The position numbers were made by a program, and so were the translations under genes. This document shows, one piece after another, positions 7,018-32,339 of a stretch of 64,000 nucleotides of DNA. The notes below the pieces were generated by a model, which worked only from the letters and a program-made list of their open reading frames with translations, was not told the origin of the DNA and made no database searches. The DNA lies in NCBI RefSeq assembly GCF_016019955.1, contig NZ_JAECRZ010000006.1, positions 186,001 to 250,000 of the forward strand, given 5' to 3'. How positions within the stretch are numbered: the first letter of the stretch is position 1; every line of letters starts with the position of its first letter. This DNA is from Thiosulfatihalobacter marinus (GTDB lineage Bacteria; Pseudomonadota; Alphaproteobacteria; Rhodobacterales; Rhodobacteraceae).

Positions 7018-7725
7018 TCACTTCGACCCAAGATAGGTTTTCAGATCCCCGTACGAACTGGCCGTGGCATAGCCCTTGGGAGGCGGCAGGAAGCCATCCG
7101 CCGTCAGATCGGCCACGACATCTTCATAGGCTTCCAGATATCCCGCAGGCAGCTTGTGCGCGATGCCCTGGTGACAATCGATACAGGTCTTGCCCTGATC
7201 CAGCGCAACCTGGTGGTTGTCAGCCGCCCGGTTTTCCTGCTGGGTAAAGTCCATATATTCAAAGCTGTGACAGTTGCGGCACTCTTTGGAATCCGACTTT
7301 TTCATCCGCTTCCACTCGCGTGACGCGAGGATTATTCGTCGCTCCTCGAACTTTTCCGGGGTCGAGATCGACCTGGTGATGAACTTGCCGTAAAGCTCTT
7401 TGGACGCCTGGATCTTGCGGATCATCTTTGGCCCCCAGTCCTTGGGCACGTGGCAATCAGAGCAAACCGCACGCACGCCAGAGCTGTTGTTCTGGTGAAC
7501 AGTGCCCTGATATTCGGCGTACACGTTGTCCTCCATTTCGTGGCACGAAATGCAGAAGGACTCGGTGTTGGTGGCTTCCACCGCCCAGTTGAAACCACCC
7601 CAGAACAGAACGCCGGTTACAAAGCCGACAATCAGCAGGAAACCCAGCGAAAACACGCCCGAGGGAGAGTTCACAAAACGCCACACGCGCCCGATGAAGC
7701 CCTTATTTGCGTCTTGGTCTGACAT
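7018..7725 (-). CDS. napC: Tetraheme cytochrome c NapC (quinol dehydrogenase)
   Basis: NapC oxidises quinol in the inner membrane and passes electrons to the NapAB complex. The 235-residue protein has a cytoplasmic N-terminus, one membrane anchor (about residues 22-44) and four CXXCH heme sites: CISCH 58-62, CSDCH 88-92, CRNCH 149-153 and CIDCH 181-185. The start giving MSDQDANKGF is preceded by GGAAAGGAC. It is the last gene of napFDABC, 23 bases after napB. Its N-terminal 180 residues closely resemble the protein at 22845-24635 in this window, so the two are probably paralogues. Confidence 0.95.
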   Translation of the reverse strand: MSDQDANKGFIGRVWRFVNSPSGVFSLGFLLIVGFVTGVLFWGGFNWAVEATNTESFCISCHEMEDNVYAEYQGTVHQNNSSGVRAVCSDCHVPKDWGPKMIRKIQASKELYGKFITRSISTPEKFEERRIILASREWKRMKKSDSKECRNCHSFEYMDFTQQENRAADNHQVALDQGKTCIDCHQGIAHKLPAGYLEAYEDVVADLTADGFLPPPKGYATASSYGDLKTYLGSK

Positions 7726-7748
7726 TTTTCTTGTCCTTTCCGAACGGC

Positions 7749-8183
7749 TTACTGCGAAGGCACAAAGACATTGTCCACCAACGCCGGCGCGTCGGCCTGC
7801 GGAACGTGACATTGATTACAGAACCAACGTGTCCCGGACACTGCATCCAGCTGATTGCCGTCGCGATCCAGATAATGCGTCATCGACAGGGTTGGTGCGT
7901 CGCGATCACCTGCGTTCGACCAGTCATGGCACGCCAGGCATTGATTGGCGCTCAGATCGATCTGGTACCGGTCGATCGCATGCGGGATCAGCGGGGGCTG
8001 TTGGCGATAGTTGCGCACAAAGCGCTTTTCATCCTGCTTGTAGATCTTGTCCACCGGCACGAATTCATCGACCGGCGCACCACGCAGGCTTTTGACCGAT
8101 CCGGCTTGCTGGGCGGCCGCCAGGCCACCGGCGATGACGAGAACCGCTATTGTCAGGGCGCTGATGAGGCGTTGTTTAATCAT
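7749..8183 (-). CDS. napB: Periplasmic nitrate reductase diheme cytochrome subunit NapB
   Basis: NapB is the small electron-transfer subunit of periplasmic nitrate reductase and relays electrons from NapC to NapA. The 144-residue precursor has a Sec signal peptide (about residues 1-24) and two heme c sites, CLACH 82-86 and CNQCH 122-126. Distal histidine candidates include H68 and H103. It lies between napA and napC on the minus strand. Length and motif spacing fit the family. Confidence 0.95.
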   Translation of the reverse strand: MIKQRLISALTIAVLVIAGGLAAAQQAGSVKSLRGAPVDEFVPVDKIYKQDEKRFVRNYRQQPPLIPHAIDRYQIDLSANQCLACHDWSNAGDRDAPTLSMTHYLDRDGNQLDAVSGTRWFCNQCHVPQADAPALVDNVFVPSQ

Positions 8184-18914: not shown

Positions 18915-19367
18915 TTAACCCGCATCATTCGGTGGCCAGCCCTGCGTGTTGATCGTGTTGATCCACAGGAAGAACTCGCTCAAGTAACGGATCTCGTCGT
19001 CACTCAGATTGAAGTTGGGCATTTGGCGGCGGCCCTCGATTCCGGAGGGCTGCGAATTCATCCAGCCTTTCAGAGTCTCGAAAGCGGCCTCCGGGTCGTC
19101 TTCGACGCCCCAGCGGGTCATGACGTTCACGAGTTCAGGCGCAAAGTATGCCCCTTCGCCGATGAGCGTATGACAGTTGATACACGCGTTGTTCTCCCAC
19201 ACCTTTTTGCCCTTGGCGACCTCTTCGGTCAGGGTTTCCTTGTTGGTGGAAGTGTTGACGATATAGCCGTGTGATTGGAACGACAGTCCCAGGAAGATGA
19301 TGATGAAAAACAGTGACCCGCCGTAGAAGATGTTTCGGGCCATGCTCTTGGTCATGACTTCGCGCAT
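18915..19367 (-). CDS. norC: Nitric oxide reductase cytochrome c subunit NorC
   Basis: NorC takes electrons from periplasmic donors and passes them to NorB. The 150-residue protein has one membrane anchor (about residues 15-30), a single heme c site CINCH (62-66) and a likely axial methionine in GRRQMPNF. The ATG is preceded by AAAGGAGAG. It is the first gene of norCBQDEF, with an NNR-type box about 70 bases upstream. Confidence 0.96.
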   Translation of the reverse strand: MREVMTKSMARNIFYGGSLFFIIIFLGLSFQSHGYIVNTSTNKETLTEEVAKGKKVWENNACINCHTLIGEGAYFAPELVNVMTRWGVEDDPEAAFETLKGWMNSQPSGIEGRRQMPNFNLSDDEIRYLSEFFLWINTINTQGWPPNDAG

Positions 19368-19405
19368 TGGGCTCTCCTTTGCGCCAGGTTAATAGTAGGC
19401 CAGTT

Positions 19406-19425
19406 ATCGGCGGGGTTCCGCCGAT
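19406..19425. promoter_or_regulatory. Palindrome between the NNR box and norC
   Basis: ATCGGCGG-GGTT-CCGCCGAT is a perfect 8-bp inverted repeat. It lies between the NNR box (19431-19444) and the transcription start predicted near 19396, in the core promoter of norC. It could be a second operator or simply a hairpin. There is no T-run on the norC strand, so a terminator is unlikely. Confidence 0.4.
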
Positions 19426-19430
19426 CTGCC

Positions 19431-19444
19431 TTAACAAAAGTCAA
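19431..19444. promoter_or_regulatory. NNR box upstream of norC
   Basis: TTAACAAAAGTCAA fits TTAAC-N4-GTCAA and differs by one base from the Paracoccus NNR box as I recall it (TTAACAAAGGTCAA). Centred at 19437.5, it predicts transcription from about 19396, giving norC a leader of about 29 bases. Confidence 0.75.
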
Positions 19445-19488
19445 GCAAAGGTGATCAGGCGTGAGGAAGTTTGAAAAGCCGCCAGTTC

Positions 19489-20673
19489 TCAGAGGCTTGA
19501 GGCGTCCACTCTGGGTTGCGTCAGCGCTGGCCACAAACACAGGGTGTACAGCCCGAAAACCACTGCCCAGGTCAGGCTGAGCGCCGCCATCAGAGGTGTG
19601 TAGCTTTCCGGAACCAACAGGCCGACAGCCCAACGGGCAAACGCGACAAAGGCCAGAACGCCGTAGGAAATCGCCACCGCACGCGGCGCGACAAGGGGAC
19701 GGCCCGAGTGACCAAGGGCCGCCCGGCTCATCACCGCCAATGTCATCCCGCCAACACCGCCGATCCCGATCACATGCAATGCCGCCAGTTCCTGTCCTGC
19801 GCCGAACAGCGCCGCGCCCCATAGAATCAGCCCGGCCCCCAGTACTCCCAGGGCCAGATGCAGCGCGAACAGGATTGGCTGACCCAAGGCCCACAAGCCA
19901 CGCCATCGCGCCAGCCGCGCCAATTGGGCCAACCCCAACACAGCAGCGATCAGCCCGATCGCGATGTCCGGCAGCCGCACCAGAACAGAAACCGGCAACA
20001 GCAGACCCAACACCACCGAGCCCCGCTCTGCCACCTTGCTGGCAACTGGCCACGCGGCCTCGGGCAGCCCGGCGCGCTTCATGGCATTCCGGGTAAAGGC
20101 AGGCGTGATGCGCCCCCCCAGCACGACAATCATCGAAACCAGCGCGAAAACACCGCCCCGCAACCCAATATCGGCGGTATCCGCCGTAATGCCGACCCAC
20201 TCCAGATGCACCATCAGATTGGACACCCAAAGCAGGGCCAATATCGCCAGGAACATCATGTTCTGCGGCTTTGGCCGCTTGATCAGCTGGCCGGCAATTT
20301 TCAGGGCCAGGACCGGTACAAACGCCAGATCCACCACCATTACCCACTCGGCGGGAAGCCCTCCGGACAGCCACACTCCAACGCGCCCGGCCAGCCACAG
20401 CCCGGCCGCGACACCCAGAAATACGGGTCGCGCTGCCGGCGTGTTGGTCCAGTTCGGTACTGCCGTCAGGAAAAACCCGCCCAGCGCCGCCCCGGCATAG
20501 CCAAATATCATCTCATGCGCATGCCATTGCCGGGGATTGCCCGTCCAATCCAGCCCGGCGCCGATATCCAGCAGCCACGCTGCCCAGACAAGCCCGGTGA
20601 AAATTCCGTAAAGACCGGCAAACAGGAAAAAAACCCGAAACCCTTCGCTGAGAATTCGCTTGAGCACTGCCAC
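19489..20673 (-). CDS. nnrS: NnrS family heme-copper membrane protein
   Basis: NnrS is a polytopic membrane protein that contains heme and copper in characterised relatives and relieves NO-linked stress. The product is 394 residues with about 12 hydrophobic segments. It shows the family motifs WHAHEMIFGYAGAALGGFFLTAVPNW near the N-terminus, ALHVIGIGGVGGMTLAVMSRAALGHSGRPL, and RITPAFTRNAM. I chose GTG 20673 because GGAGA lies 7 bases before it; GTG 20700 is the longer option. It is divergent from nirS, with two NNR-like boxes in between. Confidence 0.92.
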   Translation of the reverse strand: MAVLKRILSEGFRVFFLFAGLYGIFTGLVWAAWLLDIGAGLDWTGNPRQWHAHEMIFGYAGAALGGFFLTAVPNWTNTPAARPVFLGVAAGLWLAGRVGVWLSGGLPAEWVMVVDLAFVPVLALKIAGQLIKRPKPQNMMFLAILALLWVSNLMVHLEWVGITADTADIGLRGGVFALVSMIVVLGGRITPAFTRNAMKRAGLPEAAWPVASKVAERGSVVLGLLLPVSVLVRLPDIAIGLIAAVLGLAQLARLARWRGLWALGQPILFALHLALGVLGAGLILWGAALFGAGQELAALHVIGIGGVGGMTLAVMSRAALGHSGRPLVAPRAVAISYGVLAFVAFARWAVGLLVPESYTPLMAALSLTWAVVFGLYTLCLWPALTQPRVDASSL

Positions 20674-20808
20674 CTGATTCTCTCCATCAACGCGACGCAC
20701 GGGGGGAATACCGCGCGCGATTGTTCCTGGCCCGCCGCCCTGTCCAGGCCGGGTTCGGCGCGCCGACTGCTCACTGTTGTCAGGATATGAGCAAATCCGC
20801 GAGCGAAC

Positions 20809-20822
20809 TTAACATCGGTCAA
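20809..20822. promoter_or_regulatory. NNR-like box 1 in the nnrS-nirS spacer
   Basis: TTAACATCGGTCAA fits TTAAC-N4-GTCAA. It lies 136 bases before the nnrS start and 143 bases before the nirS ATG, and is more likely to serve the divergent nnrS promoter. The spacer 20674-20964 holds only these boxes and no visible gene. Confidence 0.65.
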
Positions 20823-20888
20823 TCCCGTCCAGCTTTTTGGCGTGCAGATCACGAAATCCCGCGACAAATCACAAAATCGAGAGCGCAA

Positions 20889-20902
20889 TTAACGAAAGTC
20901 AA
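20889..20902. promoter_or_regulatory. NNR box 2, nirS promoter
   Basis: TTAACGAAAGTCAA, centred at 20895.5, predicts a start near 20937 and a nirS leader of about 28 bases. The same 14-mer occurs, in reverse complement, upstream of the nos genes at 41593-41606. Confidence 0.75.
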
Positions 20903-20964
20903 GGATAGCCGCCTGTGACTCCCGACATACCCGTTGTGCCTCACCAGCAAACCGGAGAGTGATC

Positions 20965-22641
20965 ATGTCGCTTGGAATCACCTACAGGAAAACACGTCGG
21001 GCACTGGGAGTCGGCTTTGCGCTTTCGCTTGGCCTGACCGCATTGCCCGCAGTTGCCCAAAGTCCCACTTTGAGCGAGGAGGCGTTCGAAGCCTCCAAAC
21101 AGCTATATTTTGAACGGTGCGCAGGGTGCCACGGCGTGCTCCGCAAGGGCGCGACCGGCAAAAGCCTTGAGCCCGTCGTCAAGAAGAAGAACGCCGACGG
21201 AACCGTGACCGAAACCGGCACGCTCAAACTCGGCCAGGAACGTCTTGAAAAAATCATCGCCTGGGGAACCGAAGGCGGGATGAACAACTTCTCGGACATT
21301 CTGACCGAGCAGGAAATCAAGGATATGGCGACCTACATCCAGATGGACCCGCCGAAACCGCCGGAAATGTCGCTGGCGCAGATGAAAGAGACCCGCAAGG
21401 TCTATGTTGAAGAAGCGGATTACCCGACGGAGCCGCTGCATGGCCGTAACTGGCAGAACTTCTTTGTCGTCATCGAACGTGACGTGGGTAAAGTCGCCAT
21501 CATCGACGGTGACACCAAGGAGGTGCTGACGCACATCCCGACAGGCTACGCGGTGCACGTGATCAAGGGTTCTGAAAAGAGCGATATCGCGGAAGTCGAA
21601 AATCCCGGCCGCTTCTGGTACACGATGGGCCGCGACGGCAAGATGACCAAGATCGACCTCTGGCAGACGCCGGACAAGATGCTGGTTTCCGAAGTCAAGA
21701 TCGCCTATGACGCGCGCGACGTTGCCGTGTCCGGCGACGGCAAATACGTGATCGGTGGAGGCTACTGGCCGCCGCACTTTGTGATCGCCGACGCGGTTAC
21801 TCTGGAGCCGCTGAAAGTTGTTTCGACCCGTGGCGTCAGCATCGACGGCGAATATGTCGAAGAAGCCCGCGTGGCCGCCATTTACAACACGCCGAACGAC
21901 CCCACCTGGCTCGTCGCCGTGAAAGAGCTGGGCCAGATGTGGCAGGTCGACTATTCCGATCTGGACAATCTGCGGATCGACAAGATCGACTCGTCCAAGT
22001 TCCTGCACGATGGTTTCTTTGACCCGACAGGCCGTTACTTCCAGATCGCCGCAAACGCGTCGAACCAGATGGTTGTCGTGGATGCCAAAGAACGCAAGCT
22101 CGAAGCCATCATCGATACGGGCACTCTGCCGCACCCCGGCCCCGGCGCCAACTGGGTCGATCCGACCTGTGGCCCTGTCGCCGCAACGCCTCACCTGGGT
22201 GAAGGCACCGTGACCGTCTGGGGCAACGATCCCGAAGGTCGCCCGGATGAAGCCTGGAAAACCTGCTATAAGGTGGAAACCGATGGCGCGGGCCTGTTCA
22301 TCCGGACACACCCGAATTCGGATTACGTCTGGGTTGACCAGACCAAGCACCCCGAAGCCGACGTTCAGCAATCGGTGCAGGTCATCTCGAAAGAGACCGG
22401 CGAAATCGTGAAAACGATCCGTGTCACCGAGGAAGAAGGCAACGTTGCCGTACACTTCGAGTTCAACAAGGACGGCACCGAGGTTTGGGTCTCCAAGTGG
22501 AACCGCGCGACTTCGAAAGAACCGAATGGCGAAATAGTGATCTACGACGCCAAGACGCTGGAAGAGATCGGTCGCGTCAAAGGGCTGTATGCTCCGACCG
22601 GCAAGTTCAACGTCTACAACCGGTCGAACCACGTGTCCTGA
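20965..22641 (+). CDS. nirS: Cytochrome cd1 nitrite reductase NirS
   Basis: NirS reduces nitrite to NO in the periplasm. The precursor is 558 residues with a Sec signal (residues 1-32, LPAVAQ). A heme c domain carries CAGCH at 52-56, followed by an eight-bladed propeller that holds heme d1. H348 (KFLHDGFF) and H390 (LPHPGPGANW) are 42 residues apart, the spacing of the two distal-pocket histidines in the Pseudomonas enzyme. H198 in YAVHVI is a candidate axial ligand. The ATG is chosen over the GTG two codons upstream because CGGAGAG is better spaced. It has its own NNR box and a downstream terminator. Confidence 0.98.
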   Translation: MSLGITYRKTRRALGVGFALSLGLTALPAVAQSPTLSEEAFEASKQLYFERCAGCHGVLRKGATGKSLEPVVKKKNADGTVTETGTLKLGQERLEKIIAWGTEGGMNNFSDILTEQEIKDMATYIQMDPPKPPEMSLAQMKETRKVYVEEADYPTEPLHGRNWQNFFVVIERDVGKVAIIDGDTKEVLTHIPTGYAVHVIKGSEKSDIAEVENPGRFWYTMGRDGKMTKIDLWQTPDKMLVSEVKIAYDARDVAVSGDGKYVIGGGYWPPHFVIADAVTLEPLKVVSTRGVSIDGEYVEEARVAAIYNTPNDPTWLVAVKELGQMWQVDYSDLDNLRIDKIDSSKFLHDGFFDPTGRYFQIAANASNQMVVVDAKERKLEAIIDTGTLPHPGPGANWVDPTCGPVAATPHLGEGTVTVWGNDPEGRPDEAWKTCYKVETDGAGLFIRTHPNSDYVWVDQTKHPEADVQQSVQVISKETGEIVKTIRVTEEEGNVAVHFEFNKDGTEVWVSKWNRATSKEPNGEIVIYDAKTLEEIGRVKGLYAPTGKFNVYNRSNHVS

Positions 22642-22666
22642 TCCGTGGATCAGTCACTCTTCTTGG

Positions 22667-22700
22667 AAGGGCGGGCCCAGCGCCCGCCCTTCTATTCTTT
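22667..22700 (+). terminator. Hairpin terminator after nirS
   Basis: AAGGGCGGGC (22667-22676) pairs perfectly with GCCCGCCCTT (22682-22691) around a 5-base loop. CTATTCTTTT follows. It begins 25 bases after the nirS stop. It may be a full terminator or an attenuator that sets the nirS excess over the next gene. Confidence 0.78.
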
Positions 22701-22713
22701 TACCAGCGGTGCC

Positions 22714-22788
22714 GGATTGCAAAGATCGCGGGGTAAGCCCCGGGCCAGCAGACAAGACCCGGATGATGCCCCCCGCTCCTTGCAATCC
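22714..22788 (+). other. Long imperfect hairpin between nirS and the NapC-like gene
   Basis: GGATTGCAA (22714-22722) pairs with TTGCAATCC (22780-22788). Inside it GCGGGG (22728-22733) pairs with CCCCGC (22771-22776), and a short CCGGG/CCCGG stem lies near the tip. The element is about 75 bases and ends 56 bases before the next ATG. No ORF or NNR box is visible in this spacer. It could be an mRNA stability or leader structure, or a small RNA; its function is unknown. Confidence 0.45.
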
Positions 22789-22844
22789 AAGACCCAAGAT
22801 CCCGGCCAGACGGGGCCTTTATCAGAGACATACGGAGCCTGGAA

Positions 22845-24635
22845 ATGACCCAGACAAACGAAAACGAACCCAAAAAGCCCCTCTGGCGGCGATATGTCCT
22901 GTGGGGCGTACCGATCGGCGGGATATTGGCGGCCTTTATCGCCGGTATCGTCTTCTGGGGCGGTTTCAACACCGCCATGGAAGCGTCCAACTCCTTGCCT
23001 TTCTGTGTCTCGTGCCACGAGATGAAAGACTACGTGTACAAGGAATACCAGGGCACGATTCACGACGTGAACCGGTCGGGCGTGGGCGCGGTCTGCTCTG
23101 ACTGTCACGTGCCCAAGGACTGGACCCACAAGATCATTCGCAAGATCAAGGCGTCCAAGGAGCTGTATGGTAAAGCCGTGGGTTCCATCAACACACCCGA
23201 AAAGTTTGACGCCAAGCGATTACAATTGGCAAAGAACGAATGGGAGAGGATGAAAAAAACCGACTCACGAGAATGCAGGAATTGTCACGATTTCACATCG
23301 ATGATGCCGGAATTCCAGAAACCGCGCGCCCGACAACAACACCTCAACGCCATGAATACCGGCCAGACGTGTATCGACTGTCACAAGGGTATCGCCCATA
23401 GCGATGTCCGTGACCGGGCCGATGACGACTACCTTGCCACTCTTGAGGCGCCGAACCCCGATTTTATCCGGGAGATTCCGCAAGCCTACATCGAAAGCCT
23501 CGCCCGAATAGAGGCAAAGGAGGCCGCCGAGGCCGAGGCGGCAGCAGAGGTCAAGAAGGCTGAAAAAGAGGCTGTGGCCGCGCGTATCGCTGCCGCCGTA
23601 GAAGCCGCCCGCGAGGAAGAACGCGCCCTTGCCGCCGGCACACAGCAGGAGGCGGCAGCCGGGTCCGATGTTGGCGGCAACATCAACTGGGATGCGGTGG
23701 ACGTTACCGATCTGACCTTGTTCTATCCGGGTCAGGCCAGCTTTGAGTTTGTGCAGAACGGCAAACAGCACGGCGGCGCCCGTCCGCTGACCAAGGGCGG
23801 CGACGCCTGCTCGACCTGTCACGCCAAGGAGCTGGAAACCATCGGCAACAAGATCGTTGCGGGCACTGAAAATACCGAGCCCACGCCAATCCCGGGCAAA
23901 CCCGGCATCATCGGCGCCACGCTTCAGGCGGCCCATGACAGTGAAAATGTCTATTTCCGCATTCAGTTTGATGGCGCCAGCCACGCGCCGGTGCCGTTTG
24001 TCGAAGGTGGCAAAATGGATCCGGACAACGAGATCAAGGTGGCCATGATGATCACCGGAACCGGGATCGAACTGGGTGATCAGGTTGGCTGCTGGGCAAC
24101 ATGTCATGCCGACAATACCTATATGCCGTTCGATCCGGGGGCCGATGCCATCGCCGCCGCGACCGATGTTGCTGCTCAGCTCCAGGCCGAAGGGACAATC
24201 ACCAAGTACCTGAGCGAAAGCCGAACAGAGGTCGAGATCAAGGGCCGGCGCGGCGCGGCTCAGGGCGGCTGGGACAAGCTGAAGCCAGCCGACGAGATCG
24301 AGCAGTATCTCAACGACGGCACTTACATGGACCTGATGCGCGTTTATGCCGACGGGTCGGCGACCAACGGCTATCTCCTTGATCGCCGGGTCGAAAACGG
24401 CGGCGAAATCAGCGCCTCGGCCAGCAAGGATGCCGCCGGCACCTGGACGGTTGTCTTCTCTCGCCCGCTTAACACCGGCGCTCAGGGGGATATCCCGCTG
24501 GAACCGGGCAAGACCTATACCGTCGGCTTCGCCATCCACGATGACTTTGCTGCGGCGCGGTTCCACCATGTCACGCTCAACACGACGCTGGCGCTGGACA
24601 ATGCCGAGGCTCAGATCAACGTGATCGGCCAGTAA
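22845..24635 (+). CDS. NapC/NirT-type tetraheme cytochrome fused to an ethylbenzene dehydrogenase-type heme domain
   Basis: The product is 596 residues. Residues 17-38 form a membrane anchor. Residues 54-180 carry four heme sites (CVSCH 54, CSDCH 84, CRNCH 144, CIDCH 176) and closely resemble NapC of this window. Residues about 215-270 are Ala/Glu/Lys-rich, probably a coiled-coil linker. The C-terminal part (about 280-596) resembles ethylbenzene dehydrogenase-like heme-binding beta domains. It has CSTCH at 322 and an unusual CX3CH, CWATCH at 416. A quinol-to-periplasm electron transfer role for NirS or related enzymes is inferred from the fold and the position after nirS. I do not recognise an established name. 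Confidence 0.8.
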   Translation: MTQTNENEPKKPLWRRYVLWGVPIGGILAAFIAGIVFWGGFNTAMEASNSLPFCVSCHEMKDYVYKEYQGTIHDVNRSGVGAVCSDCHVPKDWTHKIIRKIKASKELYGKAVGSINTPEKFDAKRLQLAKNEWERMKKTDSRECRNCHDFTSMMPEFQKPRARQQHLNAMNTGQTCIDCHKGIAHSDVRDRADDDYLATLEAPNPDFIREIPQAYIESLARIEAKEAAEAEAAAEVKKAEKEAVAARIAAAVEAAREEERALAAGTQQEAAAGSDVGGNINWDAVDVTDLTLFYPGQASFEFVQNGKQHGGARPLTKGGDACSTCHAKELETIGNKIVAGTENTEPTPIPGKPGIIGATLQAAHDSENVYFRIQFDGASHAPVPFVEGGKMDPDNEIKVAMMITGTGIELGDQVGCWATCHADNTYMPFDPGADAIAAATDVAAQLQAEGTITKYLSESRTEVEIKGRRGAAQGGWDKLKPADEIEQYLNDGTYMDLMRVYADGSATNGYLLDRRVENGGEISASASKDAAGTWTVVFSRPLNTGAQGDIPLEPGKTYTVGFAIHDDFAAARFHHVTLNTTLALDNAEAQINVIGQ

Positions 24636-24643
24636 ACCAAACA

Positions 24644-24680
24644 GAACGGCCGGGACATGTCCTGGCCGTTCCTTCTTTTG
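24644..24680 (+). terminator. Terminator after the NapC-like fusion gene
   Basis: GAACGGCCGGGACA (24644-24657) pairs with TGTCCTGGCCGTTC (24658-24671), with one G-T pair. CTTCTTTTG follows. The hairpin starts 8 bases after the stop codon. It sits just before the ribosome binding site of the cupredoxin gene. Confidence 0.65.
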
Positions 24681-24695
24681 GCAAGGAGTGGACCC

Positions 24696-25112
24696 ATGCG
24701 AGTGACAAAAACTCTTCCAATCGCCCTTCTGTCCCTGGCGGCAACCTTTCCCGCGTTCGCGGATGAAGACGACAAGACCGCGCTGTGCGCCGAGGCCGAA
24801 GAGCGGTATGTGGACATCTTCGGCGCGCCGTCCTCCGAGGCCGATGGCGTGGTTGTCGTGACCATGTACAAATACAGTTTCTGCCCCCCCGAGATTACGG
24901 TAAAGCCGGGTACAACCGTGCGCTGGGTCAATGTCGACAAACGGACCAGCCACAGCGTGCTTTCACCCGATGCCGAAATGCCGGAATCCGACCGCGCCTT
25001 CCCGGAAGAGAGCGTCGAATTCACCTTTCTCGAACCGGTCGATGCCCAAACCCTGTGTGGCCCGCATTGGGAAACCCGGAACATGATCGGAATGGTTCGC
25101 GTTCAGGATTAA
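24696..25112 (+). CDS. Periplasmic blue copper protein (cupredoxin)
   Basis: The precursor is 138 residues with a Sec signal (about residues 1-22, PAFA). The plastocyanin-like fold is indicated by PPEITVKPGTTVRWVNVD. Copper ligands are predicted as H86 (TSHSV), C121, H124 and M130 (CGPHWETRNM). The C-x2-H-x5-M loop is one residue longer than in plastocyanin (x4). Two further cysteines, C31 and C63, could form a disulfide. AAGGAG lies just upstream of the ATG. Between nirS and nirE, it is a plausible electron donor to NirS in place of a cytochrome c, an inference from context. Confidence 0.85.
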   Translation: MRVTKTLPIALLSLAATFPAFADEDDKTALCAEAEERYVDIFGAPSSEADGVVVVTMYKYSFCPPEITVKPGTTVRWVNVDKRTSHSVLSPDAEMPESDRAFPEESVEFTFLEPVDAQTLCGPHWETRNMIGMVRVQD

Positions 25113-25138
25113 ACCTCTATTTGTAATAGATATTTTTC

Positions 25139-25170
25139 AGGCGCATCTATTTGGGTGCGCCTTAACTTTT
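25139..25170 (+). terminator. Terminator after the cupredoxin gene
   Basis: AGGCGCATC (25139-25147) pairs with GGGTGCGCCT (25153-25162) around a 5-base loop, followed by TAACTTTT. The descending arm abuts the NNR box of nirE. Confidence 0.6.
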
Positions 25171-25175
25171 GTCAA
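25162..25175. promoter_or_regulatory. NNR box upstream of nirE
   Basis: TTAACTTTTGTCAA fits TTAAC-N4-GTCAA. Centred at 25168.5, it predicts transcription from about 25210, 89 bases before the nirE ATG. It would drive the nirE-C-F-DL-G-H-J-N operon for heme d1. Confidence 0.7.
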
Positions 25176-25298
25176 GGAAGCAATGGCCGCAAAGCGCGAG
25201 TCTCCACCCCATGAAACGCCAGGATTTCCACGTCTTTTGCTTTCCTTTTGCCGTGTCAGCGGTGCGTGGGCGCATCCTATCGAACGAGGGAGACCCCT

Positions 25299-26066
25299 AT
25301 GACCGGTAAAGTTACCCTGATCGGCGCCGGACCAGGTGATGCAGAGTTGATGACCGTGCGTGCGCAACGCATGTTGCGCGAGGCGGATGTGGTTGTTTAC
25401 GACCGGCTGGTTTCGGACGAGATCATGGCGCTGTGTCCCGAAGGGGCCACATTGATCCCGGTTGGAAAATGCCCGAAAAACCATCCCGTCCCCCAGGATC
25501 GTATCAACGAAATCCTGTGGGAGCAGGCCACCGCCGGGCATGTGGTGGCGCGCCTCAAGGGCGGTGACCCGATGATCTTTGGCCGCGGTTCCGAAGAGGC
25601 CGCCTATCTGATCGAGCGCGGTATCACCGTGGAGTATGCCCCCGGCATCACTGCGGCGCAGGGGGCCAGCTGTTCAACCGGCGTACCGCTGACCCATCGC
25701 GGACTCGCAACCGGCGTGCAATATGTCACCGGCCACCGGCAGGCAGACAAGACCCTTGATCTGGATTGGAAACGGCTGGCGGATCCCGACACAACCCTTG
25801 TGGTCTACATGGGTGTGTCGAATATCGGCCAGATCGCCGTCGGCCTGATGACCGAAGGCCTTTCCCCCGCGACTCCGGTCATGGCCATCTCGCGCGCCAC
25901 TTCCGCACAAGAGGAACGCATGGTCTCGACCCTTGGAACCGTCGCACAGGATACCCGCGATGCCGGGCTAAAGCCGCCAACCCTGTTCATTATCGGCAAG
26001 GTCGTGTCGCTTTACGCCCAAAAACCCCAAGACCTGCCTATCGAGGCGGTGCGGGCCAATGGCTAG
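25299..26066 (+). CDS. nirE: Uroporphyrinogen-III C-methyltransferase NirE (CobA type)
   Basis: NirE transfers two methyl groups from S-adenosylmethionine to uroporphyrinogen III to give precorrin-2, the entry to heme d1. The 255-residue protein has the family motifs VTLIGAGPGDAELMT at the N-terminus, VVARLKGGDPMIFGRG near residue 85, and YAPGITAAQG. There is no CysG-type dehydrogenase domain. It starts at ATG after CGAGGGAG. It is the first gene of the heme d1 operon. A cobalamin CobA role is possible by sequence alone, but the context favours NirE. Confidence 0.93.
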   Translation: MTGKVTLIGAGPGDAELMTVRAQRMLREADVVVYDRLVSDEIMALCPEGATLIPVGKCPKNHPVPQDRINEILWEQATAGHVVARLKGGDPMIFGRGSEEAAYLIERGITVEYAPGITAAQGASCSTGVPLTHRGLATGVQYVTGHRQADKTLDLDWKRLADPDTTLVVYMGVSNIGQIAVGLMTEGLSPATPVMAISRATSAQEERMVSTLGTVAQDTRDAGLKPPTLFIIGKVVSLYAQKPQDLPIEAVRANG

Positions 26067-26436
26067 ATGCCACCAGACATATCGCACCCCGGCCCCGCCC
26101 CGGCCCCGACGCCGCAACACGCTGACAAAAATCGCTGTTTTCGCGGGCATGGTGTCGATGGCCACAACGGCGCTTGCGTCGGAAACGCTGGATACAGACG
26201 CGCTGAAACGCCTGGTGTTGCAGGATTGCGGATCTTGCCACGGACTGACGCTCAAGGGCGGGCTTGGCCCCGATCTGCGGCCTGAATCCCTCGCGCATTA
26301 CGATGTCGATGTTCTCATGAGCGTCATTCTTGACGGCATCCCCGATACCCCAATGCCACCCTGGCGCCCGCTGATGAGCGAGGAAGAAGCCGAATGGGTG
26401 GCGCGCTATCTCTTGCAACCGGAGTCCATGCAATGA
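26059..26436 (+). CDS. nirC: c-type cytochrome NirC
   Basis: The precursor is 125 residues with one heme c site (CGSCH near residue 58). A methionine-containing segment (PDTPMPPWRPLMSEEE) gives the likely axial ligand. The N-terminus is long and Arg/Pro-rich (MARCHQTYRTPAPPRPRRRN) before the hydrophobic signal core, so the true start may be further in. The ATG used overlaps the nirE stop by 8 bases. NirC is a small periplasmic cytochrome linked to NirS maturation or electron supply. Confidence 0.85.
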   Translation: MARCHQTYRTPAPPRPRRRNTLTKIAVFAGMVSMATTALASETLDTDALKRLVLQDCGSCHGLTLKGGLGPDLRPESLAHYDVDVLMSVILDGIPDTPMPPWRPLMSEEEAEWVARYLLQPESMQ

Positions 26437-27575
26437 AACGGCTTGCCCTGACGATTGCGGCGGCGCTTATGGCGTCATCCGTGCTTGGTGAACCCACCGC
26501 CACAGGCGATCTTGGCCTGGTGATCGAACGCGCCAAGGGCTCGGTCCTGCTGGTCGATCAATCCGACCGTGCCGCGCTGGCGCGGATTGATGGCCTGGGT
26601 GATCTCAGCCATGCCTCGCTGGTTTATTCGCCAGACGAGCGTTTTGCCTATGTCTTTGGCCGCGATGGCGGCCTGACCAAGGTTGACATCGTCAAACGCG
26701 AAATCGCCAACCGCGTGGTACAGGCCGGCAACGCCATTGGCGGCGCGATCTCGGATGATGGACAATTGGTTGCCGTGTCCAATTATGAACCGGGCGGCGT
26801 GCGGATTTTTGATGCCGACACGCTTGAAATGGTTGCCGATATTCCCACCGGCAGCAAGACCATCGGTCTTGTCGATGCGCCGGGCCGCCGGTTTGTCTTT
26901 ACCATGTGGGACACGGGCGAAACCTGGATTGCCGACCTGTCCAAAGAGCTGGACATCACCCGGATCCCCGATATGGGCGATCGCCCCTATGATGCCCTGA
27001 TCACCGCAAACGGGCGCACTTACATCACCGGCCTGTTCGGCGAAGACGGCCTGACCGCGCTGGATCTCTGGGATGAATCCCCGGCACCGATACGGGTGCT
27101 GCCCAATTACGGACGCGGACAAGAAGATCTGCCGGTCTACAAGATGCCTCACCTCGAGGGCTGGGCCCTTGCCGGCAACGAATTCGTTCTCCCCGCCGTG
27201 GGCCACAACGAAGTTCTCTGGATCGACGCGAATACACTACAGGAAACCGGACGAACCCAAACCTATAGCCAGCCGGTATTTGCCATGGCGCGTCCCGACG
27301 GGCGTCAGGTGTGGGTGAATTTTGCGCACCCGAAAAACGATACGATCCAAGTGATCGACACGGTCACAAAGAAAGTGATCCACGAATTCAAGCCCGGCCC
27401 CGCAGTGCTGCACATGGAATTCACGCCGCGTGGAAATGAGGTCTGGATCAGCGTGCGCGATGCTGGAAAAGTCATGATCTACAACACCCAAACATTTGAA
27501 AAAATTGGCGAAATTGATGCCGATAGCCCTTCTGGAATATTCTTTACGGCGCGTGCGCACAGGACAGGATTGTAG
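26433..27575 (+). CDS. nirF: Heme d1 biosynthesis protein NirF
   Basis: NirF belongs to the same beta-propeller family as the d1 domain of NirS but has no heme c site. It acts in the periplasm late in heme d1 synthesis. The precursor is 380 residues with a signal peptide (about 1-21, ASSVLG). No lipobox cysteine is seen, unlike lipoprotein NirF of some pseudomonads. Propeller repeats such as FAYVFGRDGGLTKVDIV and VWISVRDAGKVMIYNTQT are visible. It overlaps nirC by 4 bases (ATGA). Confidence 0.92.
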   Translation: MKRLALTIAAALMASSVLGEPTATGDLGLVIERAKGSVLLVDQSDRAALARIDGLGDLSHASLVYSPDERFAYVFGRDGGLTKVDIVKREIANRVVQAGNAIGGAISDDGQLVAVSNYEPGGVRIFDADTLEMVADIPTGSKTIGLVDAPGRRFVFTMWDTGETWIADLSKELDITRIPDMGDRPYDALITANGRTYITGLFGEDGLTALDLWDESPAPIRVLPNYGRGQEDLPVYKMPHLEGWALAGNEFVLPAVGHNEVLWIDANTLQETGRTQTYSQPVFAMARPDGRQVWVNFAHPKNDTIQVIDTVTKKVIHEFKPGPAVLHMEFTPRGNEVWISVRDAGKVMIYNTQTFEKIGEIDADSPSGIFFTARAHRTGL

Positions 27576-27578
27576 GCC

Positions 27579-28580
27579 ATGAAAATCGTCGCAGACCCCA
27601 TAGACCGCCTGCTGCTTGACGAATTTCAGCGCGATTTTCCGATTGCGCCACGGCCTTTTGCGGCACTGGCCGACAGGTTGCAGATTGACGAGGCCGATGT
27701 GCTGGCCCGGTTGGAGCGGATGCGCGGAAACGGCCGGATTTCGCGGGTCGGCGCCACCTGTGCGCCCAACACGGTGTCGGCCAGCACATTGGCTGCCGTT
27801 GCCGCGCCGGATGAACGGATCGAGGAAGTGGCCGCGATCATCGGGCAGGAACCCGGTGTCAATCATTCCTACGAACGCGAAGACCGCTGGAATCTATGGT
27901 TCGTCGCCACCGGCCCGGACCGCGCCCATGTCAATGCCGCGCTGAAACGTATCGAACAGCGCACCGGACTGGAAGTGCTGGACCTGCGCCTGGTGCGCCC
28001 GTTCAATGTCGATCTGGGGTTTCGGCTGACCGGTGGCGAAGGCACCAAAGGCGCGCCGCCTCGGGCACGCCCGGTGGATTGCAGCGTCATTCAGAAGGAT
28101 GACCGGAATATCATTCAGGCACTGATGCGCGGATTGACAATCACCGCACGTCCCTACGAGGCCCTGGCCCGCAAACTGAACCTTGGCGATGCGGATCTTC
28201 TGGAGCGCGTTCAGGTGCTGCATGACGCCGGCATTATCTCGCGCCTTGGCGTGATCGTGCGCCACCGCGCGCTTGGCTGGCGCGCCAATGCCATGGTTGT
28301 GTGGGACTTGCCGCATGACGCAATCACAGCCGCAGGGCCCAGACTGGCCGCGCAGCCGGGGGTGACACTGTGCTACGAGCGCCGCCCGATTGCGGGCAAA
28401 TGGCCCTATCGCCTGTACTCCATGATCCACGCCCGCAGCCGTGGTGAGGCCCTGGGCGCGCTGGAAAACGCCGCCCGCCTGCCGGAACTGGCGGGTGTGG
28501 CGCACAGGACCCTGTTCTCGACCCGTTGCTTCAAGCAGACCGGTGCGCTGATCACCGCGCCCAAGGAGAGCGCCGCATGA
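27579..28580 (+). CDS. nirD: Siroheme decarboxylase subunit NirDL (fused NirD-NirL)
   Basis: The product is 333 residues, about twice the length of NirG and NirH. It contains two tandem AsnC/Lrp-like units (about residues 5-145 and 165-325). Each has a helix-turn-helix-like part and an alpha/beta domain with an NHSYERE or TLCYERR histidine/tyrosine motif. Such proteins are not regulators; they decarboxylate siroheme to didecarboxysiroheme in heme d1 synthesis. The fusion of NirD with NirL is as described in Paracoccus. It starts 3 bases after nirF and overlaps nirG. Confidence 0.92.
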   Translation: MKIVADPIDRLLLDEFQRDFPIAPRPFAALADRLQIDEADVLARLERMRGNGRISRVGATCAPNTVSASTLAAVAAPDERIEEVAAIIGQEPGVNHSYEREDRWNLWFVATGPDRAHVNAALKRIEQRTGLEVLDLRLVRPFNVDLGFRLTGGEGTKGAPPRARPVDCSVIQKDDRNIIQALMRGLTITARPYEALARKLNLGDADLLERVQVLHDAGIISRLGVIVRHRALGWRANAMVVWDLPHDAITAAGPRLAAQPGVTLCYERRPIAGKWPYRLYSMIHARSRGEALGALENAARLPELAGVAHRTLFSTRCFKQTGALITAPKESAA

Positions 28581-29029
28581 GCCCCCTCACCCAGACCGAC
28601 CGCACGCTGATCAATCGTCTTCAGGACGATCTGCCCCTTGCCAGACGCCCATTTGCCGACCTGGCCAAAGAGCTTGGCCTGAGCGAGGACGATCTTTTGA
28701 CCCGCATCGCGCGCCTGAAATCCGACGGTATCCTGACCCGTTTTGGCCCGTTCTTTGATGCTGCCGAGATGGGCGGCGATTTCTGCCTTTGTGCCATGGC
28801 CGTGCCCGAGCACGCATTCGATGCGGTGCTAACCAAAGTCAATGCGCATCCCGAGGTGGCGCATAATTATGAGCGCACACACCGGCTGAACATGTGGTTC
28901 GTGCTGGCCTGCGAAACCCCCGAGGGGATCACCCAGACCGCCGATGCCATCGAGGCCGAAACCGGGATCACCGTCTTTCGGTTTCCCAAACTGCAAGAGT
29001 TTTTCATCGGGTTTCGGGTGGCCGCATGA
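28577..29029 (+). CDS. nirG: Siroheme decarboxylase subunit NirG
   Basis: The 150-residue protein has a single AsnC-like unit: an N-terminal helix-turn-helix-like region (LINRLQDDLPLARRPF) and the EVAHNYERTHRLNMWFVLA motif. It acts with NirDL and NirH on siroheme. The ATG overlaps the nirDL stop by 4 bases, and GGAGAG lies upstream. The NirG/NirH assignment follows gene order and could be swapped. Confidence 0.87.
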   Translation: MSPLTQTDRTLINRLQDDLPLARRPFADLAKELGLSEDDLLTRIARLKSDGILTRFGPFFDAAEMGGDFCLCAMAVPEHAFDAVLTKVNAHPEVAHNYERTHRLNMWFVLACETPEGITQTADAIEAETGITVFRFPKLQEFFIGFRVAA

Positions 29030-29511
29030 CCATGGACGCAACAGACCGCCGTATTGTCGAGGCGCTTCAGGGCGGCTTGCCGCTTGTGGCCGAGCCCTAT
29101 GCAAGGGTCGCCGCCGAACTGGCGCTGCCCGAAGGCGAATTGATCGACCGGTTGCAAGCCATGAAAGACAGCGGCGTCATTCGCCGGATCGCCGCCGCGC
29201 CCAATCATTACAAACTGGGCATGACGGCGAACGGCATGACGGTCTGGGACGTGGCGGATGACCGTCTTGCCGAGCTGGGTGCAAAGATCGGCGCCCTGCC
29301 CTTTGTGACCCATTGCTACGAACGCCCGCGCGCCCTGCCCGACTGGCCCTATAACCTGTTTGCCATGGTGCACGGTTCTTCACGCGAAGAAGTGGCCGAA
29401 AAACGGGCGGCGATCACTGACATCCTGGGGGACGCGCTGAACGGCTGCGATATCCTCTATTCCACCCGGATTCTGAAAAAGACCGGGTTGCGGCTTAGAA
29501 AGCGGGGATAA
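29026..29511 (+). CDS. nirH: Siroheme decarboxylase subunit NirH
   Basis: The 161-residue protein is the fourth AsnC-like unit of the cluster ([18 protein letters not shown], then [22 protein letters not shown]). It is most like the second half of NirDL (TLCYERRPIAGKWPYRLYSM). It acts with NirDL and NirG. The start overlaps the nirG stop (ATGA); a second ATG lies two codons later. nirJ follows after 4 bases. Confidence 0.88.
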
Positions 29512-29515
29512 ACCC

Positions 29516-30730
29516 ATGTTCCGACTGACCGAATATATGCAGCAACTGGCCAACCCGACCCCGGTGCGCCTGCGCAATCCCGACCGCGCCGTCAAACCGG
29601 TTGTGATCTGGAACCTGACCCGCCGCTGCAATCTGAAATGCCGCCATTGTTATACCGTGTCCGCGGACGTGGATTTTCCCGGCGAGCTGTCGCAGGAACA
29701 GGCGTTTGACACGCTTGAGGACCTGGGCCGGTTCAGGGTTCCGGCGATCATCCTGTCCGGTGGCGAACCGCTGGACAGCCCCTACCTGTTCCCTCTTGCC
29801 GAACGCGCCCGCAAACTGACACGCGTGCTGGCCCTGTCCACCAATGGCACGCGGATTCACGGCGAAACCGCCGATCGCGTCGCTGATATCGGGTTCAACT
29901 ATGTCGGGATTTCCATCGACGGCATTGGCGAGACCAACGATTGGTTCCGTGGCGTGGACGGCGCTTTTGATGACGCGCTGCGCGGTGTTCGCGCGCTCAA
30001 GAAGCGGGGCGTCAAGGTGGGTTTGCGCTTTTGCCTGACCGAGGGCACTCACCACCACCTGCCCGACCTCTTGAAGCTGTGTGACGACGAAGGTGTGGAC
30101 AAATTCTATCTTTCCCACCTGGTCTATTCGGGCCGCGGCGACAAGAACCGGGGCGAGGACGCGCATCACCAGCGCACCCGCAACGCGCTTGACCTGCTTC
30201 TGGATCGCGCCTGGCTTGCGGCTGCCGACGACATGCCGCTGGATATTGTCACCGGCAACAACGATGCCGATGCCGGCTATCTGCTGCGCTGGGTGCGGCG
30301 CAATTTCGATGATGACAAGGTCGCGCATCTGCGCGAACACCTGGCCGCCTGGGGCGGCAACTCGTCGGGTCTGGGGGTCGCCAATATTGATTTTCTGGGC
30401 CGCGTTCATCCCGATACCTACTGGTCGGATTACACGGTCGGAAACGTGAAAACGACCCCGTTTTCCGATCTGTGGACCGGGAATGATCCGATGCTGGCCA
30501 CGCTGCGCACCCGTCCGCGCCCGCTCAAGGGCCGCTGCGGAGAGTGCCGGCTCAAGGATGTCTGCGGTGGCAACACCCGCATTCGCGCGCTTCAGTTGAC
30601 CGGTGATCCCTGGGCCGAGGATCCGGCCTGTTATCTGACAAATTCCGAGATTGGTGTCGCACAGTCAGAGAGGCTGCAAGTCACCCCGTTCCGAGGCAAG
30701 AGCCATGATCCGCAGCACCAGTTTTTCTGA
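29516..30730 (+). CDS. nirJ: Radical SAM heme d1 biosynthesis protein NirJ
   Basis: NirJ is a cytoplasmic radical S-adenosylmethionine enzyme that removes propionate side chains from didecarboxysiroheme on the way to heme d1. The 404-residue protein has the [4Fe-4S] motif CNLKCRHC (C38, C42, C45) and the SAM-binding [10 protein letters not shown]-terminal SPASM-type cysteine region ([13 protein letters not shown] ... CYL) would bind a second cluster. The gene ends 61 bases before the chosen nirN start. Confidence 0.95.
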
Positions 30731-30762
30731 CATTTCCGACGGCGCGCGCGCTGTTCCCGAGG

Positions 30763-30797
30763 GGGCCTCCGGCGGGAGTATTTTTGGCAAAATGAAG
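30763..30797 (+). repeat. Rhodobacterales-type intergenic motif before nirN
   Basis: The segment GGGGCCTCC GGCGGGAGTATTTTTGGCAAAATGAAG matches a sequence I recall as recurring after genes in Roseobacter-group genomes. It follows nirJ. Its final ATG is used here as the nirN start. Only one copy is visible in this window, so the repeat status rests on memory of other genomes. Confidence 0.35.
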
Positions 30798-32339
30798 ATC
30801 GGACGGGTGCTGGCAACCTTGGTCGCGATCAGCGCCTCAGGGTTTGCGCTGGCCGGGCCGCAGGAGGATTACGGCCAGTATTGCGCCTCGTGCCATGGTG
30901 CGGATCGGCTTGGGGGTACTGGCCCGGCGCTGATCCCGGAAACGCTGCGCCGGTTTCGCGATGCGGGGCTGAGCCAGGTTGTTCTGAACGGGCGTCCGGC
31001 CACGCAAATGCCTGCATTCGGCGAATTTCTCGACCAGCCTGGCGCCGACGCCATCGTGGCGTGGTTGAAAACGCCATTGGATTCGGTGCCACCCTGGGGC
31101 GAGGCCGAAATCATGGCCAGCCGCCAGATGAATCCGGATTACGTGGCGGTTGATGCGCCTGTTTGGGACAGCGATCCGATGAATATCACCCTGGTGGTCG
31201 AAACCGGCGATCACCATGTCAGTGTTCTGGATGGAGACACTTTTGATGTACTGGACCGTTTTCCCACGCCATTCGCCGTGCATGGTGGCCCGAAATACGA
31301 TCCCACCGGGCGATATGTCTTCATCATGTCCCGCGATGGCTGGGTTCAGAAATACGACATTTACGGGCTCAGGGAAGTGGGCCGGGTGCGCGCCGGATTG
31401 AACAGCCGCAATATTGCCATGTCGGCGGACGGCAAGTGGCTGGCTGTGGCCAATTACCTGCCCAACACGCTGACCATCCTGTCTACCGAGGATCTGAGTG
31501 TTGCCAAGGTGCAGGAAATCAAGGGCAAGGATGGCACGCCCAGCCGGGTATCCGCCGTATATCAGGCGCCACCGCGGGAAAGTTTTGTGCTTGCCCTCAA
31601 GGACGTTCCCGAGATCTGGGAAATCTTCTATGGGGCAAACCCCCCGCAATTCGGGTTCGGCCATGATTGGCGTATCGAGGGGCCTGTGCCTCAGGATACC
31701 CCTTTCCCGGTGCGCAGGATTTCGACCAAGGGCTATCTGGACGATTTCTTTTTCGACCAGAGCTACGAGTACATCATGGGCGCGTCGCGCAGCGATACCG
31801 GCGAGGGCACCGGCGGACAGGTGATCGACCTGGTGATCGGCCAGAAGATCGCCGATCTCGACCTGCCCGGCATGCCGCATCTCAGCTCTGGCATCACGTG
31901 GGAGCGCAATGGCACCACGATCATGGCAACGCCGCATATTCGCGATGGCGTGGTTTCGGTGATCGACATGTCGACCTGGGAAACAATCAAGCTGATCGAG
32001 ACCGAGGGCCCGGGATTCTTTGCCCGCAGCCACGAGACCTCTCCTTATATCTGGGTGGATGTTTTTTTTGGCCCGAACAAGGACAAGATGCATGTCATCG
32101 ACAAGCAAAGCCTTGAGATTGTCGCCACCTTGCAGCCCGAGCCGGGCAAGACGGTGGCGCATGTCGAATTCACACGGGACGGGCGGTATGCGCTGGTGTC
32201 GATCTGGGAAGATGATGGCGCCGTGATCGTCTATGATGCCAAAACACTGGAAGAGGTGCGTCGCCTGCCGATGCGCAAACCCTCGGGGAAATACAATGTC
32301 TGGAACAAGATCACCTTCTCGGAAGGCACCAGCCACTGA
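30792..32339 (+). CDS. nirN: Cytochrome cd1-like protein NirN (dihydro-heme d1 dehydrogenase)
   Basis: NirN is a NirS-like periplasmic c-type cytochrome with a d1-binding propeller. It catalyses the last step of heme d1 synthesis and delivers the cofactor. The ATG at 30792 gives a normal signal peptide (MKIGRVLATLVAISASGFALA) and a 515-residue precursor. The heme site CASCH follows near residue 34. Propeller landmarks are ATPHIRDGVVSVIDM and HVEFTRDGRYALVSIW. An ATG at 30705 inside the nirJ end would add 29 residues that do not look like a signal. It is the last d1-pathway gene here. Confidence 0.93.
   Translation: MKIGRVLATLVAISASGFALAGPQEDYGQYCASCHGADRLGGTGPALIPETLRRFRDAGLSQVVLNGRPATQMPAFGEFLDQPGADAIVAWLKTPLDSVPPWGEAEIMASRQMNPDYVAVDAPVWDSDPMNITLVVETGDHHVSVLDGDTFDVLDRFPTPFAVHGGPKYDPTGRYVFIMSRDGWVQKYDIYGLREVGRVRAGLNSRNIAMSADGKWLAVANYLPNTLTILSTEDLSVAKVQEIKGKDGTPSRVSAVYQAPPRESFVLALKDVPEIWEIFYGANPPQFGFGHDWRIEGPVPQDTPFPVRRISTKGYLDDFFFDQSYEYIMGASRSDTGEGTGGQVIDLVIGQKIADLDLPGMPHLSSGITWERNGTTIMATPHIRDGVVSVIDMSTWETIKLIETEGPGFFARSHETSPYIWVDVFFGPNKDKMHVIDKQSLEIVATLQPEPGKTVAHVEFTRDGRYALVSIWEDDGAVIVYDAKTLEEVRRLPMRKPSGKYNVWNKITFSEGTSH

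Follow-up and report, generated by a model that had tools for sequence, protein, structure and literature searches.

The open reading frame at positions 22845-24635 of the window (the whole stretch of DNA analyzed here, 64,000 nucleotides of Thiosulfatihalobacter marinus) is best read as nirTB, a gene in which NirT and NirB are joined in one membrane-anchored protein. The joining of NirT to NirB is real and well conserved, and such fusions have been mentioned in print before; what is less ordinary in this family is a CX3CH site in the NirB part and a form in which NirB is doubled. The best explanation for the gene, and one that we consider probable, is that the fusion carries quinol electrons via a neighboring cupredoxin to the nitrite reductase NirS.

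The nirTB gene and its neighborhood

As the first-pass annotation had it, the frame lies on the + strand and encodes 596 aa, with an ATG at 22845 and the last nucleotide of the stop codon at 24635. Two Pfam domains were found: PF03264 (Cytochrom_NNT, hereafter NNT) at residues 27-187, with 234.1 bits (cut-off 24.1), and PF09459 (EB_dh) at residues 332-576, with 95.1 bits (cut-off 33.3). The former agrees with the NapC-type quinol dehydrogenase part of the earlier annotation, quinol oxidation itself being predicted, and the latter bears out the EB_dh-type heme domain proposed there. The highest 19-residue hydropathy (2.23) starts at residue 18, and the AlphaFold model places a helix at residues 13-48. 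In the same model the linker is a single long helix (residues 213-264), in a region where Ala and Glu are abundant (residues 190-281); the whole-protein model has a pLDDT of 71.6 and a pTM of 0.64, and its NapC part is weak. The parts of the gene are as follows.

22845..24635, + strand: nirTB fusion gene, 596 aa (ORF list, Pfam)
22896..22952, + strand: N-terminal membrane anchor, residues 18-36 (hydropathy, model helix)
22923..23405, + strand: NapC/NirT tetraheme domain, residues 27-187 (PF03264)
23481..23636, + strand: long Ala/Glu-rich helical linker, residues 213-264 (AlphaFold helix, composition)
23688..24632, + strand: NirB-type EB_dh domain, residues 282-596 (PF09459; Foldseek matches EBDH gamma 2ivf_C and NXR-C 7b04)

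The gene lies 203 nt downstream of the end of nirS (22641), on the same strand, and is followed by a cupredoxin and by genes for heme d1 synthesis, several of them identified through homologues in other loci read (L numbers). The names nirDL, G, H, J, and N are in part our presumption.

20959..22641, + strand: nirS, cytochrome cd1 nitrite reductase (PF02239, 386.8 bits, plus a cytochrome c domain)
24657..25112, + strand: cupredoxin, a type-1 Cu protein, in the nirM position (PF00127)
25248..26066, + strand: nirE, uroporphyrinogen-III methyltransferase, heme d1 synthesis (homologue annotated cobA in L032)
26059..26436, + strand: nirC (cytochrome c domain)
26394..27575, + strand: nirF (85.6% homologue in L032)
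27579..32339, + strand: presumed nirDL, G, H, J, and N, heme d1 synthesis and insertion (gene order, annotated homologues in L032 and L034)

The cupredoxin frame begins 21 nt past the nirTB stop. Its true start is probably 24696, where a plausible signal peptide begins, which would make the gap 60 nt. An FNR-box scan allowing up to 2 mismatches gave 29 matches (22.2 expected), none of them in 18971-30819, and no sigma-70-like site was found at 20600-25400. Hairpins followed by T-rich runs are present at 22664-22694, between nirS and nirTB, and at 24644-24671, between nirTB and the cupredoxin; the number of hairpins in the region (4) is no higher than in shuffles (mean 5.9).

A full-length NirTB homologue is present in 34 of 390 genomes of the order, Rhodobacterales (68-100% identity), and nirS and a cupredoxin flank the fusion in all 30 of the loci read among these 34 genomes (L001, L003-L031), indicating that nirTB is not a product of chance. 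The same NNT-EB_dh fusion is also carried by plasmids of Ruegeria, Aliiroseovarius, and Azospirillum. Given its recurrence in the order and on plasmids, we rejected a chance juxtaposition or a misassembly.

Identification as NirTB

A fused NirTB has been found in Halomonas sp. 2A (PMC13086519, excerpt, citing Li et al. 2018), and the same excerpt cites NirT as required for nitrite reduction in strain ZoBell. In Pseudomonas stutzeri RCH2, Psest_0817, annotated “Ethylbenzene dehydrogenase,” follows nirS (Psest_0815) by two locus numbers, and its value of -2.1 equals those of nirS and nirF (PMC5554334, excerpt). This annotation and gene order, together with the split forms described below, led us to equate NirB with the EB_dh protein. 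In the open-access literature searched, the term “nirTB” occurs in one paper, and we found no experiment on a fused NirTB; the excerpts of a Marinobacter paper (PMC6152468), a coral Ruegeria paper (PMC13187470), and a D. shibae paper (PMC5954134) do not mention a nirTB gene.

The NapC/NirT part

Residues 27-188 of NirTB are 61% identical to the NapC encoded in the window, which is the only other match in the genome at E <= 0.001. The paralogy noted in the first-pass annotation thus holds, and the stretches WGGFN, CSDCHVPKDW, and ASKELYGK on which it drew are present.

7018..7812, - strand: napC of the nap operon, paralogue of the NirTB N-terminal domain (61% identity)

NirTB falls below the cut-off of NCBIfam TIGR02161 (napC_nirT; 261.9 versus 310.6), and the NapC, TorC, and NrfH equivalog models are likewise all under cut-off. 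Its assignment to the NapC/NirT group is therefore based on Pfam and on anatomy, four CxxCH motifs standing behind a single N-terminal membrane helix. A TorC/DorC identity was rejected, the score for TIGR02162 being 226.3 versus a cut-off of 478.2. A NirT-like protein, ImoA, oxidizes quinol (PMC9600427, excerpt).

We built a tree of 99 NNT domains, leaving out five of 104 candidates in which the domain was not detected or was incomplete. Its deep forks are unsettled and long branches were flagged, NapC rows included, so that the tree is mute on the kinship of NirT and NapC and on the number of fusion origins. At shallower depth, the window's fusion clusters with six more from its order (100/99), and the eight split NirT of Rhodospirillaceae form a group with three fusions of Azospirillum (100/95).

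Five conserved heme motifs and a putative sixth with CX3CH spacing

The heme motifs of NirTB are listed below, with their conservation.

23004..23018, + strand: heme motif 1, CVSCH (54-58), then M60; C54, C57, H58, and M60 in 41/41 aligned fusions
23094..23108, + strand: heme motif 2, CSDCH (84-88); C, C, and H in 41/41 aligned fusions
23274..23288, + strand: heme motif 3, CRNCH (144-148); C, C, and H in 41/41 aligned fusions
23370..23384, + strand: heme motif 4, CIDCH (176-180); C, C, and H in 41/41 aligned fusions
23808..23822, + strand: heme motif 5, CSTCH (322-326; C322, C325, H326); CxxCH once per EB_dh domain
24090..24107, + strand: putative heme motif 6, CX3CH, as CWATCH (416-421; C416, C420, H421); once per EB_dh domain

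The first-pass annotation had counted two more heme motifs in the C-terminal domain. One is indeed a CxxCH, at residue 322; the other, at residue 416, is a CX3CH and not a CxxCH. Each of the 102 EB_dh domains counted (partial domains left out) in the best 80 of 389 loci likewise carries a single CxxCH and a single CX3CH, which in every case reads CWxxCH. Moreover, C322, C325, H326, C416, C420, and H421, as well as H565 and H574, are invariant in 17 diverse EB_dh sequences, the window's included.

NirB is described as a diheme cytochrome (PMC13086519, excerpt); if so, the second heme would most obviously be bound covalently at CX3CH. CX3CH has been reported as an atypical putative heme motif in ImcH and CymA homologues (PMC6295460, excerpt) and, looked for by that word, is a little-documented heme signature in the open-access literature. 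If it does bind heme covalently, the NirB domain would offer a testable case of a non-standard attachment motif. Two proteins met in the wider searches have further CX3CH motifs: in L175 (5960-7657) the fusion contains two CX3CH beside four CxxCH, and in L177 (7004-7642) the NNT protein contains one CX3CH beside three CxxCH. To judge by these sequences, the longer spacing may occur at NapC-type heme sites as well.

Fold of the EB_dh domain

A model of the EB_dh domain (pLDDT 80.8, pTM 0.84) was compared with known structures using Foldseek. The first match was the EBDH gamma subunit 2ivf_C (E 8.7e-9; TM 0.61 by target and 0.43 by query, rmsd 7.4) and the second NXR-C, 7b04_C (E 4.4e-8, TM 0.38 by target), followed by weaker matches to carbohydrate-binding CBM9-like folds (1.4e-4 to 5.4e-4). 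The whole-protein model again gave 2ivf_C (E 4.5e-9) and 7b04 as the top two, and sequence profiles of the domain agree with the fold (7b04_C, 6.8e-7; 2ivf_C, 2.2e-6).

These matches, with the gamma subunit first at both E values, are what one would expect if the domain were a genuine gamma subunit belonging to a molybdenum dehydrogenase in the DMSO-reductase family. Nevertheless, TIGR03477 gives 20.8 bits against a cut-off of 169.85 and the neighboring genes are nir, on which grounds we ruled this identity out. In addition, the EBDH C-subunit and NXR-C each hold a single b-type heme, with Met155 and Lys305 as ligands in NXR-C (PMC8387239, excerpt), whereas the NirTB domain has two c-type-like motifs; we give the gamma-subunit reading practically no credence. 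The profile alignment stops at NXR-C R301, which pairs with NirTB R572, and H574 lies two residues and Lys305 four residues further on, which puts the invariant H574 near the position of the NXR-C lysine. The heme-b pocket of the EBDH-gamma fold may have been turned into the CX3CH site.

Fused, split, and doubled forms

To survey the family, genome contigs were scanned with a profile made from the C-terminal alignment, which gave 389 relatives, of which the best 80 loci were kept and read. Of these, 47 hold NNT-EB_dh fusions, some of them truncated at the end of a contig; 22 have two EB_dh domains; in 8, NNT and EB_dh are separate genes; and 3, located at contig ends, have EB_dh alone. A nirS gene was detected in 72 of the 80: in 63 it is adjacent, upstream and on the same strand, in 8 it is divergent, and in L048 it is upstream and outside the adjacency rule, the stop-to-stop frame there overrunning. 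The eight divergent loci are all eight of the split forms (in L039, nirS is only a 96-residue piece at the contig end), which belong to Magnetospirillum and other Rhodospirillaceae. Among the eight loci without nirS, seven have a frame that begins within 137 nt of a contig end, and the other, L068, shows no nirS match across 6 kb of upstream DNA. Azospirillum sp. TSO22-1 has two fusion copies, both cut by contig ends: L072, which adjoins nirS, and L068, with none within 6 kb upstream. The link to NirS drawn in the earlier annotation is thus upheld, both by conserved linkage and by other genomes in which NirT and NirB are encoded separately next to nirS.

Profile matches were also found in 17 of 385 genomes of the class and 17 of 398 genomes of the phylum, several of them weak or partial, and 13 regions around these matches were read (L169-L181). 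Two show the gene order nirS-NNT-EB_dh (L170, L171), two have fusions beside nirS (L175, L176), and three have EB_dh without an NNT match (L173, L174, L179). In the remaining six (L169, L172, L177, L178, L180, L181), NNT and EB_dh are separate genes, the CX3CH site is present, and the stretch that was read contains no nirS; L181 has a weak NNT match (44 bits). The pair is therefore not tied to NirS everywhere and, from gene content, may serve other systems too.

In the 22 doubled forms among the best 80 of 389 loci, one NNT domain is joined to two EB_dh domains, with 6 CxxCH and 2 CX3CH in each.

Double-EB_dh loci, first half: L037, L041, L044-L046, L050, L051, L055, L066, L070, L074
Double-EB_dh loci, second half: L089, L090, L092, L094, L098-L100, L107, L110, L112, L113

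The paired EB_dh copies of a single protein share 69-92% identity. In a quick tree, 21 of the 22 first copies have a first copy as their closest neighbor outside their own protein, and 15 of the 22 second copies have a second copy; neither first nor second copies form one clade.

The fusion tracks one NirS lineage in the window's order

Using the window's NirS as query (1e-100) against the 390 genomes of the order, we found matches in 76, of which 35 have 81-100% identity and 41 have 45-49%. All 34 genomes with the full-length fusion fall among the 35 with NirS at >= 81%; in the 35th (G234), a contig end truncates the fusion gene after about 83 residues. In contrast, none of the 41 genomes with NirS at 45-49% has an EB_dh profile match at 0.001, the same profile detecting the domain in carriers in the class and phylum searches. 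The fusion therefore tracks one NirS lineage in the window's order, and NirS in general does not need NirTB. In the three of the 41 genomes that were read (L182-L184), nirE directly follows nirS, then C, F, and DL-type genes; the D. shibae operon is given as nirSECFDGHJN (PMC5398030, excerpt). Such a sharp split within one order provides natural pairs for testing the NirTB route.

The position of nirTB among heme d1 synthesis genes could also suggest that it serves heme d1 insertion or NirS maturation, for instance by taking electrons from NirN, and not respiration. We consider this very improbable, since the 41 genomes have NirS with no EB_dh match and, where read, nirE, C, F, and DL genes after nirS, and since maturation has no obvious need of a membrane quinol dehydrogenase.

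Proposed electron route

We propose that the likeliest route runs from quinol through NirT, NirB, and the cupredoxin to NirS. The NirT part, anchored by one helix, would oxidize quinol at the membrane; electrons would pass through its four hemes; the long helical linker would let the NirB domain act as a tethered periplasmic relay; and the neighboring cupredoxin would take the role of NirM and bring electrons to NirS.

A cupredoxin lies within 800 nt downstream in 57 of the best 80 of 389 loci. Among the 23 without one by this rule, 6 have less than 800 nt of downstream DNA, three (L043, L097, L103) have a cupredoxin match in a frame that the rule missed, and the remaining loci have none near. 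The Cu-site H, C, H, and M and a P are kept in 47 of 47 aligned cupredoxins, and the G of CGPH in 45 (44 sequences from the 80 loci, from frames under 170 aa within the set distance, plus those of the window, Ruegeria, and Azospirillum). In three loci the cupredoxin slot holds a small frame with one CxxCH (L094:8943-9404, L100:8931-9413, L110:8931-9413), with a PF00034 match in L094 and L100, and L110 judged by place and a similar C-terminal sequence.

NirM is stated to carry electrons from NirT to NirS (PMC9600427, excerpt), and a type-1 Cu protein stands in NirM's place here, so that a soluble carrier appears more likely than direct contact between NirTB and NirS, with the cupredoxin probably replacing NirM. 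The first-pass annotation had advanced the hypothesis that NirTB could feed NirS directly and bypass the bc1 complex; such a supply would need no soluble carrier. The adjacency of nirS and nirTB, the tethering of NirB by a long helix, and the 23 loci without a cupredoxin by the rule would fit such a supply; against it stand the 57 loci with the copper protein next, the invariant copper ligands, the small frames with one CxxCH that fill the same slot in L094, L100, and L110, and the stated role of NirM, and we find direct supply decidedly improbable.

We also searched for cytochrome c1 (PF02167) in 56 genomes that carry the fusion, its split counterpart, or an EB_dh relative standing alone (13 of the order's 34, 27 of the 80 contig-scan genomes, and 9 and 7 from the class and phylum searches, respectively). 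It is present in 55, the window's genome included, indicating that NirTB coexists with bc1 and is no stand-in for a missing one, and that the usual bc1 route is available in carriers. The sole genome without a match is that of L070. As it is metagenome-assembled, with completeness not given, the absence is not trustworthy, and we did not retain L070 as a bc1-free carrier favoring a bypass.

This coexistence would also suit a role of NirTB mainly as an activator, whose first electrons switch oxidized NirS to its active state while the bulk flows via bc1 and the cupredoxin. NirT is possibly an essential activating partner (PMC13086519, excerpt), and the title of Zajicek et al. points the same way. 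Nevertheless, a six-site relay and the need for NirT in strain ZoBell suit steady flow equally well, and 41 genomes of the order have NirS without NirTB. We regard an activating role as unlikely, though less so than direct supply, and retain the quinol-to-cupredoxin route as our preferred reading.

If this route holds, nitrite reduction in denitrifiers of this NirS lineage could be supplied with electrons taken before bc1. Both energy yield and the competition of nitrate and nitrite for electrons, discussed for nitrite accumulation in PMC13086519 (excerpt), would then change. A more ambitious version, in which NirTB and the cupredoxin would form a dedicated, bc1-independent quinol-to-NirS chain of one NirS lineage, the CX3CH pocket would be covalent and c-type, and NirB would be doubled to give eight heme sites in genomes labeled Gammaproteobacteria, Rhodospirillales, and Acidobacteriota, is put forward only tentatively, as we judge it somewhat more apt to fail than to hold in its entirety.

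Comparison with known systems

The NapC of the nap operon (7018-7812) shares the tetraheme domain with NirTB, but it lacks an EB_dh domain and sits, unlike NirTB, in a nap operon. TorC/DorC is, like NirTB, a NapC-type domain extended C-terminally by a heme domain. It has five heme sites (PMC9600427, excerpt), whereas the C-terminal domain of NirTB is of EB_dh type with two sites. EBDH gamma and the Kuenenia NXR-C share the fold of that domain and weak sequence similarity with it, yet each has one heme b where NirTB has one CxxCH, one CX3CH, and a conserved His.

The closest likeness is found in nirSTBM of Pseudomonas (Stutzerimonas) stutzeri, in which genes for a tetraheme NapC/NirT protein and an EB_dh-type cytochrome likewise come right after nirS; NirTB was set beside P. 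stutzeri NirT and NirB and the Halomonas NirTB by description and annotation. In Stutzerimonas, nirT and nirB accompany clade-1b nirS and are absent from clade-1a strains (PMC13086519, excerpt), so that both systems are tied to one nirS clade, in print for Stutzerimonas and here in the window's order. In contrast to nirSTBM, NirTB is one polypeptide with a long linker, and a cupredoxin stands in the place of NirM.
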